Origin: a virus
Virus record (IMG/VR): IMGVR_UViG_3300036850_000020
Coordinates: 1 to 37,605 of that record
Strand: one strand, 5' to 3'
Length of the DNA stretch: 37,605 bases
Shown here piece after piece: positions 12,710 to 20,066 of the stretch. The notes under the pieces are model-generated. The model worked only from the letters and a program-made list of their open reading frames with translations, did no database searches and was not told where the DNA came from. A program made the translations under genes and the position numbers. Position 1 is the first letter of the stretch. Every line of letters begins with the position of its first letter.

Positions 12710-14823
12710 CTCTCCTCTGGTACTACTCCGTCGACGCCTCAACGGTGCTGGAGATCACCAATCGCGTTCGGCTGCCCACGAATGACGAAGGCGAAGCGAT
12801 TGGCGTCGGCTCCCACGCCGACGCTGGGTCGGGCTGGGAAGGTGACATCTACATCGACGACCCCACGGGTTCACTGACCGAGATCCTCCAGTTCCGCCGA
12901 ATCTACTGCGTCCAGGACGCCGCTCCAGCCGGGGCTCAGGTCGTCGGCAACTGGTTCGTGTCGAACGTCAAGGTCGTGCGGATGGATCCGTTCTCCGGGG
13001 CTGCTCGCCGTTGGATCGTCACGATGGCCGATGAGAACTCCCTGCTCAACCGGCGCAAGTTCGTCGGCACCGATGCCAACCGGGCCGCAGAGACGGACAT
13101 CGTTCGCCTGCGCTGGTACCTGACCACCACCGAAGGGAATTTGTTCTCGACTGACGAGACATTCATCGACACGACCAACCCCGTGACGATGGACGCCGTG
13201 GACCTCCGCCAGACCGGCGCGGAGGAGATGTTCATGGCGATGTTCCAGCGGTCCAAGAAGCACTACTGGATCAAGTACACGGAGGCGAGCGCGGTCGGCG
13301 GGGCCATTGTCAGCTCGTCCGTCGCCAACCCCACGATCATCACGACGACCTCGGCCCACGGCCTATACACCGGCATGATCGTCACCATCGCCGGCCACTC
13401 GGGGTCCACTCCCTCGATCAACGGCACGCACACCGTCACGGTCATCTCCACGACCACCTTTTCCATCCCGGTCAACGTCACGGTCGGTGGGACCGGCGGA
13501 ACGACGACAGCCAACGGTCGATACGTCATCTGCTACTTCAACATGAACACGTCGTCGCTCTATGCGTCGACGGTCTCCATCTCGAACAACCCTGCCGACA
13601 ACATCATCGGTGCGGCCAACCCGACATCACTCGTCTACCCACTGTCCGGGGATGCCGAGCTCGACCGATCTGGCGGGCGAATGGGCTCGGGGATGCTCGT
13701 CTCGCACATGGGTCCGGGCAAGTTCGCCTACGCTCAGGACACGTCCGTAGGCGATACCTATGCCTACGTCGACCGGGTGTCCCCCGCTCCGCAACTGAAT
13801 ACGGACGCGTCCGCGCTGGCGCAGGCGCAAGCGTCGCTGGCGGAGGTGGCGATCCCAGACGACGAGGTACGAACCACCCTCCGAGTCGAGGCTGCGCGGC
13901 TCAATCTCGTCATGCACGGGATGAAGGTCCCGGTCAAGGCGACTCACTTCCCGAATTACACCGCCGCGTCTGCTCTGCCGGGCTGGGCCACGGGTTTCGT
14001 GGACTGCCGGGTCATGGAGCGGACGGTCAACCAGGTCGGCCCGACAACGTTCGATGTGCCGCTGCGGTTGAGTCCGATGACGGTACCGGCAGAGCCGCAG
14101 ATGTTCACAGACACGCAGCTCGGCTCGTGTGAAGCAGGAACATGGCCGAACGGCGCGCCAGGCGCGGGCCTCACCCTGATCGGCTTTCTCGCTCAGCGCG
14201 GCGGGTCGACCCACGACGCGACGATCGTCCCCATCTCAACGACAGCTCTGGCATCCAACTGCGCTTCGACATGGGACGTAGCCGGAACCGGCTGGACCTA
14301 TATCACCAGCTCGGATGTGCGGAGTGGCGGGGGCGGCTATCCGATCACGATGGCGAAGCGCACATCAACCGCCAGCGATGCGGCCTTCCTTCGCTGGGGC
14401 GGGACCGGCGGCGGCCTCAACGGCACCGCCCGACCTCGAAGCCATCAGATCGCAGTCTCGGGTTTGGCCGGGACGAATACTGCGGCGGTCGTTTCGGTCG
14501 CTCAGACAACCAGCGGTTCGTCGTTCGTCACCGGCAGCTTCGTCGTCACGACGGCCCCGGGCTGGATCTACGCCTGTTTGTCGTACACAAAGGGTGGGCC
14601 GGCCGATAACCCCGATCCTGACTTCAACCTCGTCGCAGTTGCGCCGGCCGAGCACCTGACCTACGGCCTGGCCTACGGCAGCTTCGGGCCTCGATCAGCG
14701 ATGGCCCGTCTGCGGGTCACGACCAACGGCACCTACACCATCTCGTGGGCGCCGACCGGCACCATCGTCAATCCGACGTTCCAGGCGTACGGTTCTATCG
14801 GCGCCTTCTTCCCGGACGCCTGA
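12706..14823 (+). CDS. Distal tail / tail-tip protein with FCCH-like domain
   Basis: This 705-residue protein starts at GTG 12706. The N-terminal 200 residues contain beta-rich segments (LQFRRIYCVQD, VVGNWFVSNVKVVRMDP) of baseplate-hub type. Residues about 205-270 form a Thr/Ser/Gly domain with TTTSAHGLYTGMIVTIAG and NGTHTVTVISTTTFSIP. This pattern is that of the small FCCH-like domain often inserted in phage tail proteins. The C-terminal half is beta-rich. It follows the tape measure, as expected for distal tail or tail-tip protein. Receptor contact is an inference. Confidence 0.72.
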   Translation: MTLLWYYSVDASTVLEITNRVRLPTNDEGEAIGVGSHADAGSGWEGDIYIDDPTGSLTEILQFRRIYCVQDAAPAGAQVVGNWFVSNVKVVRMDPFSGAARRWIVTMADENSLLNRRKFVGTDANRAAETDIVRLRWYLTTTEGNLFSTDETFIDTTNPVTMDAVDLRQTGAEEMFMAMFQRSKKHYWIKYTEASAVGGAIVSSSVANPTIITTTSAHGLYTGMIVTIAGHSGSTPSINGTHTVTVISTTTFSIPVNVTVGGTGGTTTANGRYVICYFNMNTSSLYASTVSISNNPADNIIGAANPTSLVYPLSGDAELDRSGGRMGSGMLVSHMGPGKFAYAQDTSVGDTYAYVDRVSPAPQLNTDASALAQAQASLAEVAIPDDEVRTTLRVEAARLNLVMHGMKVPVKATHFPNYTAASALPGWATGFVDCRVMERTVNQVGPTTFDVPLRLSPMTVPAEPQMFTDTQLGSCEAGTWPNGAPGAGLTLIGFLAQRGGSTHDATIVPISTTALASNCASTWDVAGTGWTYITSSDVRSGGGGYPITMAKRTSTASDAAFLRWGGTGGGLNGTARPRSHQIAVSGLAGTNTAAVVSVAQTTSGSSFVTGSFVVTTAPGWIYACLSYTKGGPADNPDPDFNLVAVAPAEHLTYGLAYGSFGPRSAMARLRVTTNGTYTISWAPTGTIVNPTFQAYGSIGAFFPDA

Positions 14824-15995
14824 TGCCTCAATCACCGCTCCTCGGACAGCCGCTCCAATTGGCTCTGGCCGCGCAGAGCGTCCCCGCGTCGGGCGTCACA
14901 GTCGCCGATACGCCCAACAAGTTCGACGCGGGCGATCTCGAATCCGTCCTCCAGGAACTCGTGGCTGGTGGGCTGACGATCTGGAAGCCGTCTGTCCGGG
15001 TTGCCACGACGGTAGCCGGCACGCTTACGTCAAGCTTCGAGGCCGGCGACACGGTTGACGGGATCGTGCTCGCGGAGTTCGACCGCGTCCTCATCAAGAA
15101 TCAGGCGGCCGGGGCTGAGAACGGGATCTACACGGTCAACACCTCCAGTTCGCCGACGCGCGCCCCTGACATGGACGCCAACGATGAGGTGGTCGGGGCA
15201 GTCGTGTATGTCCGCGAGGGCGCATCCAACGCAGGCTCGATCTGGATCAACACCAATCTGACGGAGCCAACGCTAGGCACGACAGCTCTAACATTCGATG
15301 AGTTCAACGTCGCGCTGTCTGGGTTCCTCGAGGTCATCAATGGCGGCGGCGGCACCGTCCAGGCCCACGGCAATCTTGGCTTGACGGAGACGATCAATCT
15401 CGCGAACGGCAATTACCACTGGGGCACGCTCGATGCCAACTGCACCTTCACGTTCACGGTCACAGCGGACACTGCCGAACGCTGGTTCACCCTCGAACTC
15501 ATCGAGGACGGGACTGGAGGCTGGTCCCCAACCTGGCCGGGATCGGTCGTCTGGGTCGGAGGAAACACGCCGACCCACGACACAACCGCCGGGACGACCA
15601 CGATCTACGTGTTCTTCACCCGTAATGGTGGGACCACATGGATCGGCGGAGAGTTGGGTGGCGGATCGGCTCTAACCGTCGAGAACGAGGGCGTTGCGCT
15701 CGCGACGGCGGCCGAGCGACTCGATTTCGTCGGAGATGGTGTCACCGCGTCGGGTACTGGCACTGAGAAGACGATCACGATCTCGGGGGTTCCCACAGGC
15801 GCGGCGGGTGGCGACCTGTCCGGGACGTACCCGAACCCGTCCGTAGTCGACGACTCACATTCGCATACCGGAGCGACCGCGCCGGGTGGTATCGGGCCGC
15901 TCCTGCTCGAAAGCACGCATGCCACCCCGATTGTCTTCGACGACATCCTCCAAGCCAGTGACGGCTCGGACTTCCTCTATGCCAGCGAACCGTAG
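14823..15995 (+). CDS. Tail fibre protein
   Basis: This 390-residue protein starts at ATG 14823 on the previous stop. Residues 55-145 contain the common fibre module that reads VRVATTVAGTLTSSFEAG, then FDRVLIKNQAAGAENGIYTV and VVYVREGASNAGSIW. A GGDLSGTYPNPSV motif (about 320-332) is also a frequent fibre element. The rest is beta-rich Thr/Gly sequence, suggesting a trimeric fibre that contacts the host surface. Confidence 0.8.
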   Translation: MPQSPLLGQPLQLALAAQSVPASGVTVADTPNKFDAGDLESVLQELVAGGLTIWKPSVRVATTVAGTLTSSFEAGDTVDGIVLAEFDRVLIKNQAAGAENGIYTVNTSSSPTRAPDMDANDEVVGAVVYVREGASNAGSIWINTNLTEPTLGTTALTFDEFNVALSGFLEVINGGGGTVQAHGNLGLTETINLANGNYHWGTLDANCTFTFTVTADTAERWFTLELIEDGTGGWSPTWPGSVVWVGGNTPTHDTTAGTTTIYVFFTRNGGTTWIGGELGGGSALTVENEGVALATAAERLDFVGDGVTASGTGTEKTITISGVPTGAAGGDLSGTYPNPSVVDDSHSHTGATAPGGIGPLLLESTHATPIVFDDILQASDGSDFLYASEP

Positions 15996-16003
15996 GAGAG
16001 ACG

Positions 16004-17011
16004 ATGGCCGCCATTGAGAACGAAAAGATTTACGGACTCAAGATTCGCGAATCGGCCAACGACGGCTCTGACTTCACGAACCCGGACGTGGACTACCGTG
16101 TGGCGTTCCTCGGAGAAGACGGCCTGTGGCACGTCAAAGATTCGGCGGGTGCGGTCACCAACCCGTACAGCGGCGGCGGCACAACATCGAACTTCCCCTG
16201 CCAGGGCCGACTCACCCTGACGACTGCTGTCCCGGTTACGACTGCCGACGTGACCGCAGCCACGTCCGTGTACTTCACCCCATACCAGGGCAATCAGATC
16301 GCCACGTATTCCGGTTCCGCCTGGACGCTCTCGACGTTCACAGAGAAGACGCTCTCTCTCGCGGGCCTGACCGCCGACTCGAACTACGACATCTTCATCG
16401 TAGACTCGACGCTCGCACTAGAGGCGTTGATCTGGACGAACGCGACGACTCGAGCGACCGCGCTGGTTCTCCAAGACGGCATCCTCGTGAAGTCAGGCGC
16501 GACCACGCGGCGCTATCTCGGGACGATCCGGATCACTGGAACCACAGGCCAATGCGAAGACTCGGCCGCGAAGCGGTTCGTATGGAACTACTACAACCGC
16601 CGGCTCCGCTTCATGAAGGTCACCGACGCCACAGACACATGGAACCAAACCGTGACCGCCTGGCGGCAGGCCAACGCATCAACGGCTAATCAGGTCGCCT
16701 ACGTCGATGGCTACAGCGAGGACGTGATCCGAGCCACAACGCTCGGCGCACATGGTGGTGGTTCAGGTATTGCTGGGGCGGTTGGGGTCGGTGTCGATTC
16801 GACGACCGCTAACTCGGCTCAGATTTTCAACGAAGCCAACTCGTCGACCACCACCAACCCGTCTTCTATCGCCCACTATCGCGGCTACCCCGGCGTTGGG
16901 TATCACACCCTCGTCTGGATCGAATACCGCCGGGCAGGGACGGTGGTGTGGCAGGGCGACGCTGGCGTGGTGGATGAGCAGACTGGCTTGATTGCAGAAG
17001 TTTGGGGATGA
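16004..17011 (+). CDS. Tail-associated structural protein
   Basis: This 335-residue protein is preceded by AGGAGAG. It begins AAIENEKIYGLKIRE and contains many beta strands with Thr/Ser/Ala turns (about 65-190). A Gly-rich hinge lies near 249-262 (GGGSGIAGAVGVGVD), followed by a C-terminal WIEYRRAGTVVWQGD. No exact family was recognised. Its place between fibre and BNR_4-like gene suggests a fibre or tail-tip accessory, possibly a trimerising one. Confidence 0.68.
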   Translation: MAAIENEKIYGLKIRESANDGSDFTNPDVDYRVAFLGEDGLWHVKDSAGAVTNPYSGGGTTSNFPCQGRLTLTTAVPVTTADVTAATSVYFTPYQGNQIATYSGSAWTLSTFTEKTLSLAGLTADSNYDIFIVDSTLALEALIWTNATTRATALVLQDGILVKSGATTRRYLGTIRITGTTGQCEDSAAKRFVWNYYNRRLRFMKVTDATDTWNQTVTAWRQANASTANQVAYVDGYSEDVIRATTLGAHGGGSGIAGAVGVGVDSTTANSAQIFNEANSSTTTNPSSIAHYRGYPGVGYHTLVWIEYRRAGTVVWQGDAGVVDEQTGLIAEVWG

Positions 17012-18252
17012 TCGCTCGGCGTTTACTCATGGGCGGCGGCGGCGCCCTCACAGTCCTGTCAGTCGCCGAGTTCGAGGTACTCGCCACGCCCAAGGGTGGT
17101 TGGACGTGGTTTAACGACCCGCGGGCAATCTACTACAACGGCAAAACGTACTTCGGCTACATCGACGGATCAGGTGATCCGTACGCCGCGCAGTATGTTC
17201 ACTCGACCGGGCTGACGAGCACACCAGCTCGCCTTTATCCCGCCGCTTCGCCCTTCCAAGTCGATGACCACGACAACCCCGCGTTCCTGATCCGCGACTC
17301 GGACAAGCGGATCCTGGCGTTTTTCTCGACCCACTTTGGGACCGATCAGTACATCAACATCTCGACCAACCCCGAAGACGCGACTGTCTGGGACGGACCG
17401 ACCAACATCCGCTCGGTCATTGGCGGGAACATCACGACCTATGCCAATCCGGTCCAACTCACGGGAGAAGCGAACGACCCAATTTACTTCTTCTTCCGCG
17501 ACCACTACGACGGGACAAATACCGAGTGGGGGTACTCCAAGTCGACTGACGGCGGGGTGACGTGGGGCTCGAAGGTGTCCGTCGTCCGGCTGAACTACAC
17601 GAAGAACGTCCCCAACGGCGATAGCCGGATCGACTTCGTGGGGAGTCCGCACGCCGACAACTCGGTCGAGCCGATCGAGCACTCGATCTATCACTGGTAC
17701 TACCAGGGCGGGGCATGGTTCAAGAGCGATGGAAGCGCGGCCGGAAGCCTTCCTCTCGCCGCATCCTCGCTCACCAAGGTCTACTCGGGAGCCGGAGCCG
17801 CGGATGATGCCTGGATGTGGGATATCGCTATCGGCGGGGACGGGCGCCCGCGGATCGCCTACGCCACTTTCCCCTCGACCTCGGACCACCGCTACAACTA
17901 CGCCCGCTGGACCGGGACGGGGTGGGTCACCAGTCAGATCGCGGTCGGCGGCAACCACATCTACGGCGACGCGACCCAGGCGTACTACTCAGGCGGAGTC
18001 GTTATCGATCAGTCCAATGTGAACGTGGTCTATGCCTCGATCTACATTTCGGCCGGACGATGGGACATCTTCCGCTACGAGTCATCCGACAACGGCCTGA
18101 CCTGGGTTGGCACCGCGCTCACGTCATCCGGCAAGAACGTCCGACCTGTCTCGGTTCGTAACCACGGCGCCGAACTCCAGGTCCTCTGGATGGACGGTAC
18201 CTACACGACCTACACCAACTATTCCGTTGGGACGACGGGCGCGGGGGTCTAG
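17008..18252 (+). CDS. BNR_4-type beta-propeller tail protein
   Basis: This 414-residue protein overlaps the previous gene by ATGA. The first conserved region (GWTWFNDPRAIYYNGKTYFG, from residue 31), DDHDNPAFLIRDSDKRI (about 86-102) and Asp-box-like segments SKSTDGGVTW and ESSDNGLTW match the BNR_4 family of beta-propellers linked to polysaccharide binding or cleavage. In the tail block it would bind or degrade host glycan. Whether it is catalytic cannot be told. Its last 129 bases are overlapped, on the other strand, by the glycosyltransferase gene. Confidence 0.78.
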   Translation: MIARRLLMGGGGALTVLSVAEFEVLATPKGGWTWFNDPRAIYYNGKTYFGYIDGSGDPYAAQYVHSTGLTSTPARLYPAASPFQVDDHDNPAFLIRDSDKRILAFFSTHFGTDQYINISTNPEDATVWDGPTNIRSVIGGNITTYANPVQLTGEANDPIYFFFRDHYDGTNTEWGYSKSTDGGVTWGSKVSVVRLNYTKNVPNGDSRIDFVGSPHADNSVEPIEHSIYHWYYQGGAWFKSDGSAAGSLPLAASSLTKVYSGAGAADDAWMWDIAIGGDGRPRIAYATFPSTSDHRYNYARWTGTGWVTSQIAVGGNHIYGDATQAYYSGGVVIDQSNVNVVYASIYISAGRWDIFRYESSDNGLTWVGTALTSSGKNVRPVSVRNHGAELQVLWMDGTYTTYTNYSVGTTGAGV

Positions 18253-19149
18253 TAGTCGCTCGCGGACCAGATCCGCGGCCATCCCCACGACGACGAGCCC
18301 CGGAATGGGGATCGTCAGTGACAGCGCGGTCAGGGGCAGCGAGGCAAGGGCAGGCAACGCAAGCACGGCGTAGTACGGCTGGGTGAACGGCCACAGGACA
18401 GGCACGATCAACCACGCCGCTCGTTTCCGTCCAAGGAGGGCGAGACAGACGAGCGCCACGGGGATGAGCAGGGGCACGGCGGTCGCGGAGAAGCCCGAAT
18501 CCGCCTGATCGGCAAACGTCTGCGATACCGTCTCTCGCGCGGCGATGAACGCCGGCCACGCGAGGAACGGCGCGGTTATGAGGAGCAAAACCCCCGACGC
18601 GACCAACGAGCGCCACCGTCCAAGCAGGAGCAGCGGCAGGACGGAGTAGATCCGGGCCGACACAGCGATGGCTTCCCCGGCCATCCCTCCACGAACCATG
18701 AGCGCGAGCGCGAACACGGCGCCGTTCCCTGCGGCCACCCCGAGGACGATCGGCGGGAACAGCAGCCACCACAGCGGGAGGTTCAGGCGGCGGATGGCGT
18801 AGACGGCTGACAGCGCGGATATCCCGACCCACGTGACCGAGATCAGCGCATCGGACATCCAGGCGAAGGGTAGGTACAGGAGCAGGCTCGGCGGCGGGGC
18901 GGCGTACGCGATATTGCCCTGTTGCAACCACGGGTCGCCTCCTGACAGAAGGGCCTGCGCCGCGTGGGCGTAGACGACGGCATCCCAGCCGAATGGCAAG
19001 CCGATGCGGATGGGAACCGCGACGAACCAAGTCGATACGCCCGCGAAGGCAGTGATGAGCACGATCCGCGTGATGCGGAATATCGCCCCTCCGGGGGCGG
19101 CTTCACTGTTTCCGGTGCCTGCCCACACCCTCCAATGCTCACGAGTCAT
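18124..19149 (-). CDS. GT87-like integral membrane glycosyltransferase
   Basis: This 341-residue protein has at least eight hydrophobic segments (from about 28-47 through 281-293). The loop after the first helix contains GWDAVVYAHAAQALLSGGDP (acidic D56, Y60, then GDPW), and AYAAPPPSLLLYLPFAWM follows at 81-98. This is the pattern of polyprenyl-phosphate-sugar-dependent GT87/DUF2029 glycosyltransferases. It probably adds a sugar to a surface glycan outside the membrane. It lies 97 bases behind the repressor stop on the same strand, so it could be co-expressed during lysogeny. The last 42 or so residues overlap the tail gene and look like an extension past an ancestral stop. No good ribosome site or TANNNT box precedes ATG 19149. 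Confidence 0.72.
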   Translation of the reverse strand: MTREHWRVWAGTGNSEAAPGGAIFRITRIVLITAFAGVSTWFVAVPIRIGLPFGWDAVVYAHAAQALLSGGDPWLQQGNIAYAAPPPSLLLYLPFAWMSDALISVTWVGISALSAVYAIRRLNLPLWWLLFPPIVLGVAAGNGAVFALALMVRGGMAGEAIAVSARIYSVLPLLLLGRWRSLVASGVLLLITAPFLAWPAFIAARETVSQTFADQADSGFSATAVPLLIPVALVCLALLGRKRAAWLIVPVLWPFTQPYYAVLALPALASLPLTALSLTIPIPGLVVVGMAADLVRERLLDPRARRPNGIVGVGRVGTVHPEDLEFGAVVTNRDRSDVLAG

Positions 19150-19209
19150 TGCGGTTGCATCCTGCTTGACGGCATCATGGGCGGGTCATCATCCATAGAG
19201 GGGGCCATC

Positions 19210-19422
19210 ATGTCTAGGCGTCCCGTCAATGATCCGGTGCATCCGGTCACTCAGATCGAGGCCGCTTTCTACGAGGCGGTCGAGCAGGCAGCTTATCGGG
19301 CGACTCGGGAGGCTCTGAGAGCGCCCGTGTCACGCCAGCCACAATTGCGTTGTTCGCCAACGCTTCGAGGCGCGCCAGCAAAGCCGTCATCCGTTCGTCG
19401 TTCCGGTCCAGACGACCGATGA
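19210..19422 (+). CDS. Possible small protein overlapping the repressor gene end
   Basis: A 70-residue reading starts at ATG 19210 after AGAGGGGG (19197-19204). Its first 35 residues (VTQIEAAFYEAVEQAAYRAT near the start) look helical and natural. The rest is Arg/Ser/Pro-rich and lies antisense to the repressor gene. It could be a genuine small gene that overlaps the repressor 3' end, or chance. Confidence is low. Confidence 0.3.
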   Translation: MSRRPVNDPVHPVTQIEAAFYEAVEQAAYRATREALRAPVSRQPQLRCSPTLRGAPAKPSSVRRSGPDDR

Positions 19423-19729
19423 GCCGGATGATCGCATCCTCCGTCGATGTCGGAGTCTGCTCCCGCCCTTGGTAGGCATCCCACAAGTCGCGGATCGGGA
19501 TATTCAATATCTTCCCTACCCGCTCAAGGGTCCACGACGAAGGCGTCTGCTGGTTTGTGAACCATAGGTAGAACGTGCCTCGGCTGACCTTCGCCTCACG
19601 CGCCAGGCGGCTCATCGTCATGCCTCGGATGCGCGCCATTCCCGCACGCATGGTCGCTTCGAGTAGCCGACCCGGAGATTCCGGGTCCTGCGCCGCGTAA
19701 AGCTCGTCAACGATCTCGTCGTCGGGCAT
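19247..19729 (-). CDS. HTH repressor (CI-like immunity regulator)
   Basis: This 160-residue protein starts at the ATG at 19729 (complement) after GGTGAG. Longer in-frame starts would read through the promoter and are rejected. An XRE-type helix-turn-helix lies at about 35-85 (MSRLAREAKVSRGTFYLWFTN). A probable coiled coil at 95-130 would give dimers or higher oligomers. The basic C-terminus is RRKRPRSE. There is no LexA-like peptidase domain, so RecA-triggered self-cleavage is unlikely. It is divergent from the Cro-like gene across a palindromic operator region and probably maintains lysogeny. Confidence 0.82.
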   Translation of the reverse strand: MPDDEIVDELYAAQDPESPGRLLEATMRAGMARIRGMTMSRLAREAKVSRGTFYLWFTNQQTPSSWTLERVGKILNIPIRDLWDAYQGREQTPTSTEDAIIRLIGRLDRNDERMTALLARLEALANNAIVAGVTRALSEPPESPDKLPARPPRRKRPRSE

Positions 19730-19755
19730 CCATCTCACCACATGTCGCGCGCGCT

Positions 19756-19771
19756 GTTGACAGTAGTCAAC
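19756..19771. promoter_or_regulatory. Palindromic operator in the immunity switch
   Basis: GTTGAC-AGTA-GTCAAC is a perfect 6-bp inverted repeat with a 4-bp spacer. It overlaps the proposed leftward -10 box (19760-19765), so a protein bound here would block the repressor promoter. It shares the core TTGAC with the nearby -35 repeats. Confidence 0.7.
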
Positions 19772-19789
19772 AACAAGAAGGGTTGTCAA
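19760..19789 (-). promoter_or_regulatory. Leftward (repressor) promoter
   Basis: On the minus strand TTGACA (complement of 19784-19789) is followed, after 18 bases, by TACTGT (complement of 19760-19765). Transcription would start near 19752, giving a leader of about 22 bases with a GGTGAG ribosome site before the repressor ATG. It would also read toward the glycosyltransferase gene. Confidence 0.6.
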
Positions 19790-19818
19790 TACAAATCTTA
19801 GCCGACCGGTATTGACAA
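19783..19818. promoter_or_regulatory. Inverted repeat carrying both -35 boxes
   Basis: TTGTCAAT (19783-19790) and ATTGACAA (19811-19818) are exact inverted copies 20 bases apart. Each contains the TTGACA -35 box of one divergent promoter. A regulator bound across this element could control both directions at once. Confidence 0.62.
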
Positions 19819-19841
19819 GCGCCACCGGACAGGCTGATACT
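19812..19841 (+). promoter_or_regulatory. Rightward (early) promoter, leaderless for the Cro-like gene
   Basis: TTGACA (19812-19817), an 18-base spacer and GATACT (19836-19841) form the promoter. The ATG follows 6 bases later at 19848, so the message would begin at the start codon. Confidence 0.66.
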
Positions 19842-19854
19842 GTCGTCATGACAG
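19840..19854. promoter_or_regulatory. Palindrome over the Cro-like start codon
   Basis: CTGTC-GTCAT-GACAG is a perfect 5-bp inverted repeat with a 5-bp centre. It contains the ATG and would overlap the predicted rightward transcription start. A repressor bound here would block initiation. Confidence 0.55.
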
Positions 19855-20066
19855 ATCGAACGGTTCCCGCGACACCCTGGTATGAACGTGCCGAGGAGCG
19901 GGGGATCAGCATGGAATGGCTCGCCGCGATGACCGGCGTCAGTTGGTCGACGGTCTATGCGTACAAGATGGGCCGTCGAAAGGTGCAGCAGTCCTGGCTC
20001 GACAAGGTAGAACTGCTCATCACCGCGCATGACAATATGCCGGGTTCTGGAGTCAAGGTGTCATGA
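19848..20066 (+). CDS. Cro-like HTH regulator
   Basis: This 72-residue protein is divergent from the repressor. The HTH region (about 23-55: MEWLAAMTGVSWSTVYAYKM, followed by GRRKVQQSWLDKVE) is typical of small Cro/XRE-like DNA-binding proteins. It probably represses the leftward promoter early in infection. ATG 19848 is preferred because it lies 6 bases after a promoter -10 box. The longer TTG 19812 start would begin inside the -35 box. It overlaps the next gene by ATGA, so it leads the early operon. Confidence 0.8.
   Translation: MTDRTVPATPWYERAEERGISMEWLAAMTGVSWSTVYAYKMGRRKVQQSWLDKVELLITAHDNMPGSGVKVS

Follow-up and report, generated by a model that had tools for sequence, protein, structure and literature searches.

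Prophages can modify the receptors of their host cells by means of glycosyltransferases, as in the GtrABC clusters of P22 and of the Shigella phages (PMC3688519, PMC11436027). Accessory genes are also located behind the repressor gene cI, i.e., rexAB in lambda and bstA in BTP1, where the cI promoter drives bstA (PMC7067206), and phage TP-J34 carries ltp, a surface lipoprotein gene, in a leftward lysogeny module (PMC3952083). We have analyzed an IMG/VR virus record of 37,605 nucleotides (37.6 kb; referred to as the window), in which the gene for a GT87-like glycosyltransferase (protein P0001) lies behind that of a candidate repressor. As in GtrABC, this would be a prophage-borne membrane glycosyltransferase with a presumed lipid-linked sugar donor and a predicted role in receptor modification, but the enzyme is GT87-like rather than GtrC, it is placed behind the repressor and it stands alone. 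The gtrA and gtrB genes (PF04138, PF00535) were sought in the records G000, G001 and G180, which are possibly fragments, and no match was obtained. Like rexAB, bstA and ltp, the gene appears as an accessory gene in a lysogeny region, but RexAB, which acts in superinfection immunity, BstA, and Ltp, which blocks DNA injection, are not glycosyltransferases. We consider it reasonably probable that a host-derived GT87-like enzyme occupies here a lysogenic-conversion slot behind the repressor, and that it alters the surface glycan and limits re-adsorption.

The window has a normal siphophage gene order. The plus strand carries the genes for terminase, portal, protease, major head protein, head-tail proteins, tape measure and tail proteins; after the tail module comes a short leftward stretch of two genes, and then the rightward early genes, which include a RecE-like exonuclease, methyltransferases and a replication initiator. 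RNA families and tRNAs were looked for in the window and none was found. The glycosyltransferase gene (18124-19149, minus strand) starts with ATG and encodes a polytopic membrane protein of 341 aa, and its 3′ end overlaps by 129 bp a convergent gene of the tail module (17002-18252, plus strand). The preliminary description had located this gene on the same strand as, and 97 bases downstream of, a HTH open reading frame, and the gap (19150-19246) indeed measures exactly 97 bases. The reading frame is taken as a real gene because P0001 is 46% identical over 270 aa to the product of a Chloroflexota chromosomal gene, and dozens more relatives are found at about 29-48% identity. PADLOC returned nothing for this gene, and a holin or lysis role was ruled out by its GT-C fold and homology.

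The assignment to GT87 rests on the family HMM, on profile comparison and on an AlphaFold model. When P0001 was scanned as a single sequence against Pfam, PHROGs and NCBIfam no match was obtained (0 Pfam families; the cut-off of GT87, PF09594, was not reached), which counts against the main reading. At the level of the family the picture was different, since PF09594 was matched by 9 of the 18 members, the best at 2e-8, and hhalign aligned the P0001 family with a GT87 alignment whose lead sequence is itself confirmed by Pfam (PF09594 match of 5e-27) with 98% and 2e-13, an approximate figure because the GT87 alignment was small and two of its rows had poor frames. Thus, the GT87/DUF2029 relationship suggested in the preliminary description fails for the single sequence, and the kinship holds at the family or profile level. 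Neither P0001 nor the family profile matched any PDB entry at the sequence level. The AlphaFold model of P0001 had a pLDDT of 86, with the C-terminal ~35-40 aa predicted to be disordered. When the PDB was searched with this model, PimE, a GT87 enzyme, was the top match (probability 1.00, E 5e-3, TM 0.45-0.47), followed by PIG-U of the GPI transamidase, ArnT and PglB. The TM-score is moderate, and is also counted against the main reading; the model nevertheless supports the GT-C fold that had been proposed. A search of BFVD with the same model revealed no credible viral relative.

D58 and Y62 of PimE are essential residues (PMC12041525). D56 and Y60 of P0001 align with the Asp and Tyr of GT87, and their spacing is that of the PimE pair (Tyr at +4). 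Hence P0001 shares with GT87/PimE (PF09594; PDB 9dm5, 9dm7) the GT-C fold and an equally spaced Asp/Tyr pair, and its length is similar (341 residues versus 367-383 in the PimE entries of the PDB). In contrast, P0001 has diverged too far to be detected by the GT87 HMM, and R166 replaces the family lysine, which is present in nearly all homologues; this replacement is another point against the main reading. The presumed equivalence of R166 to K195 of PimE, which binds the donor phosphate, comes from the alignment with GT87 proteins other than PimE. PimE is a polyprenyl-phosphate-mannose-dependent mannosyltransferase, whereas P0001 is a phage-encoded, putative glycosyltransferase.

The upstream gene (19247-19729, minus strand; ATG at 19729) encodes a HTH regulator of 160 aa that matches phrog_8 (3.5e-6) and HTH_26 (2.4e-4). 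The HTH assignment is weak but consistent, and the protein is a candidate lysogeny repressor. A Cro-like HTH gene is divergent from it (19812-20066, plus strand, as listed from a TTG at 19812; the ATG at 19848 is the likelier start). Between both genes lies the densest cluster in the window of the half-site GTCAA/TTGAC (4 within 70 bp). An operator-like palindrome, TGTTGAC-AGTA-GTCAACA (19755-19772), overlaps the -10 region of a possible leftward promoter (TTGACA-18-TACTGT), and an operator-like inverted repeat, TTGTCAATAC-16-GTATTGACAA (19783-19818), overlaps the -35 region of a stronger, rightward promoter-like site (TTGACA-18-GATACT, 10/12; 19812-19841, plus strand). Judged from these elements, the operator-like repeats and the divergent Cro-like gene look like a lysogeny switch that is apparently intact. 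No terminator-like site was seen on the minus strand from the HTH gene to the glycosyltransferase gene, so that read-through across the gap, as envisaged in the preliminary description, is plausible. A weak promoter-like match is present within the gap (19216-19188), just upstream of the glycosyltransferase gene, and the RNA fold of the intergenic stretch was unremarkable (z -0.47).

A second viral contig, IMGVR_UViG_3300036851_000517 (G001, also L002), encodes a glycosyltransferase homologue 36% identical to P0001. Here the tail genes are followed by the convergent glycosyltransferase gene, a HTH gene on the same strand as the latter, and a divergent small HTH gene, and the contig carries a tyrosine integrase (1e-26). 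The HTH regulators of both phages show a faint likeness (27% over 100 aa). The gap between the HTH and glycosyltransferase genes of G001 is about 300 bp, which may hold a separate promoter and counts against the main reading. A 37-aa TM-peptide reading frame with a strong ribosome site (AGGAGGTGA; L002:922-1035) directly precedes and overlaps the TTG (1028) at which the G001 glycosyltransferase gene likely starts, and translational coupling is possible. In addition, a near-identical C-terminal stretch (GAAGGDLSGTYPNPSVVDDSHSHT...) is common to a tail protein of the window (14745-15995) and one of G001 (L002:2566-5634), genomes that are otherwise far apart. A third record, L051, is akin to the window phage (terminase 59%, exonuclease 66%). 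Its slot (L051:8280-9324) carries a leftward gene for a 136-aa HTH-like protein, with a Cro-like gene divergent from it. The HTH-like gene is followed by one for a different protein of 109 aa, which has a single TM segment at its N terminus, belongs to no known family and is a candidate exclusion protein. The Cro-like HTH of L051 was confirmed, and the 136-aa protein was called as HTH by eye (0 Pfam families). In L049 neither a leftward repressor nor a cargo gene was found. Because the content of the slot differs in L051, and because L049 lacks both repressor and cargo, the slot behind the repressor is variable in content and tracks the repressor.

An order in which the cargo lies downstream of the repressor and co-oriented with it is therefore common to the window, G001 and L051, and this was counted in favor of a conversion locus. 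No integrase or resolvase domain was found in the window contig, which counts against it; either part of the genome may be missing from the contig, or the phage may be maintained in another way. A temperate lifestyle would follow from the lysogeny switch and from the relatives. Thus, the lysogenic conversion unit proposed in the preliminary description is borne out in its layout, which recurs in the integrase-bearing G001, in the variable slot and in the lack of a terminator, and it is weakened by the missing integrase. The same absence, together with the weak HTH scores, would suit an explanation in which the HTH protein has no repressor function and makes up, with the glycosyltransferase, a small regulated island that has nothing to do with lysogeny. 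We regard this as improbable, since the regulator has a divergent Cro-like partner, palindromes are found at both promoter candidates, a similar switch is present in L051, and G001 has an integrase. Alternatively, the glycosyltransferase could be expressed during lytic growth from a promoter of its own, so that the altered surface of infected cells spares the virions from being lost on debris or on infected cells. The promoter-like site within the gap and the lack of a detected integrase would fit this alternative, but the gene lies on the strand opposite to the annotated lytic genes and on that of the regulator, and the layout is kept in a phage with an integrase, which makes a lytic role quite unlikely.

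The origin of the two phage enzymes was then traced among cellular genes. The nearest cellular relatives of P0001, L032 and G103:C30, are 46-47% identical to it, have a similar length and share its motifs, and further relatives are encoded in 35 of 177 genomes, all of one Chloroflexota class. Canonical GT87 is also frequent in this class of presumed hosts (found in 56 of the 61 genomes sampled, with up to 21 matches; control genomes, 2 of 14), which presumably employ such enzymes to add sugars to lipid-linked or cell-surface molecules. The cellular copies are found in envelope-glycan neighborhoods, amid GT-C, GT2 and sugar-nucleotide genes, whereas the phage copy is alone; when the sequences were read by eye, the neighbors included other GT-C proteins and UDP-glucose dehydrogenase-like and epimerase-like genes. 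Several cellular relatives adjoin a GT2 gene, and a neighbor in L034 matches phrog_841 (GtrB-like) at 1.5e-20; such GT2 enzymes could make polyprenyl-phosphate sugars. In a Chloroflexota MAG (L005:3528-5407), a tandem duplication of the GT87-like family adjoins a DPM1/GtrB-like GT2. In a maximum-likelihood tree the window enzyme was sister to the chromosomal L032 gene (100/99), and the G001 enzyme fell in a separate clade of 22 rows that otherwise holds cellular genes (94/99). A joint clade of both phage enzymes was rejected by the AU test (dlnL 60, p 5.5e-5), and with it the idea of their descent from one phage gene, so that each phage most probably acquired its enzyme from a cellular lineage of its own. 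No other genes of the window phage or of G001 were found near the cellular loci.

The slot behind the repressor would thus have acquired host GT87-like enzymes at least twice, which is the best reading of these sequences. The host origin of the gene could also mean that it was captured passively and has no function; however, the open frame is intact, the family motifs are kept and two separate captures hit one site, and we give this explanation very little credence. Within phages, no relatives were detected when both phage enzymes and one cellular GT87 were compared by tblastn with 50,697 phage records, nor in PHROGs, searches that very distant members would escape, and the literature searched on GT87 or DUF2029 in phages yielded nothing pertinent. 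A GT87 enzyme in a phage does look unusual, as had been supposed from the sequence.

The host of the window phage is probably a member of the Chloroflexota, judging from the source of the glycosyltransferase gene and from prophage-like portal genes in the same class. The prophage fragments detected there (portal identity up to 39%) do not reveal the repressor slot, being too short or unclear. The product of the convergent tail gene (17002-18252, plus strand) may bear on the receptor. It matches a PL25 ulvan lyase in the PDB (5uam; 1.5e-8, aa 39-244) and, weakly, BNR repeats, and is a candidate glycan-binding or glycan-cleaving (depolymerase) tailspike. The catalytic residues of PL25 are His123, Tyr188 and Arg204 (PMC13193363); in a pairwise alignment H90 and R166 of the tail protein face the catalytic His and Arg, and Pro150 faces Tyr188. 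The AlphaFold model of this protein was poor (pLDDT 34), and the tail protein of G001 had no polysaccharide-lyase match. The PL25-like tail protein suggests a polysaccharide receptor, which fits with, and supports, an enzyme that alters the receptor. The enzyme might instead be active and help the lysogen in another way, i.e., against envelope stress, grazing or phages with other receptors, rather than by exclusion of the same phage. The abundance of GT87 in the presumed host class means that many envelope roles are possible, but the place behind the repressor and the PL25-like tail protein favor receptor modification, and such another benefit seems unlikely.

On the main reading, that of receptor modification, the leftward repressor transcript would run in the lysogen across the 97-bp gap into the glycosyltransferase gene. 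The enzyme, placed in the cytoplasmic membrane, would use a host-made polyprenyl-phosphate sugar in a PimE-like manner, with D56 and Y60 as the catalytic pair, and would add the sugar to a presumptive cell-surface glycan or glycolipid. Progeny and related phages would then cease to recognize the lysogen surface, as is suggested by the resemblance of the phage tail protein to a polysaccharide lyase. This action would be akin to the serotype conversion of the GtrC type, without own GtrA or GtrB. The finding of a different version of the enzyme at the same place in a second virus suggests that such viruses re-decorate their host cell. It may also be, and here our estimate falls slightly short of even, that Chloroflexota phages have repeatedly captured host GT87-like enzymes in one repressor-linked slot, and use them as single-gene surface converters that work on host-made polyprenyl-phosphate sugars. 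A GT87-based counterpart to GtrABC conversion was not described in the literature and collections searched.

Surface remodeling of the serotype-conversion type is known best in phages that infect Gram-negative bacteria. If the main reading is true, such remodeling would extend to phages whose hosts belong to a largely uncultured phylum, and the rule would be to seek the receptor-changing gene directly behind the repressor. The phage enzyme is a short GT87-like protein with which the roles of the many GT87 copies of the host may be probed. Separate captures at one site suggest a strong selection for a change in the host glycan.
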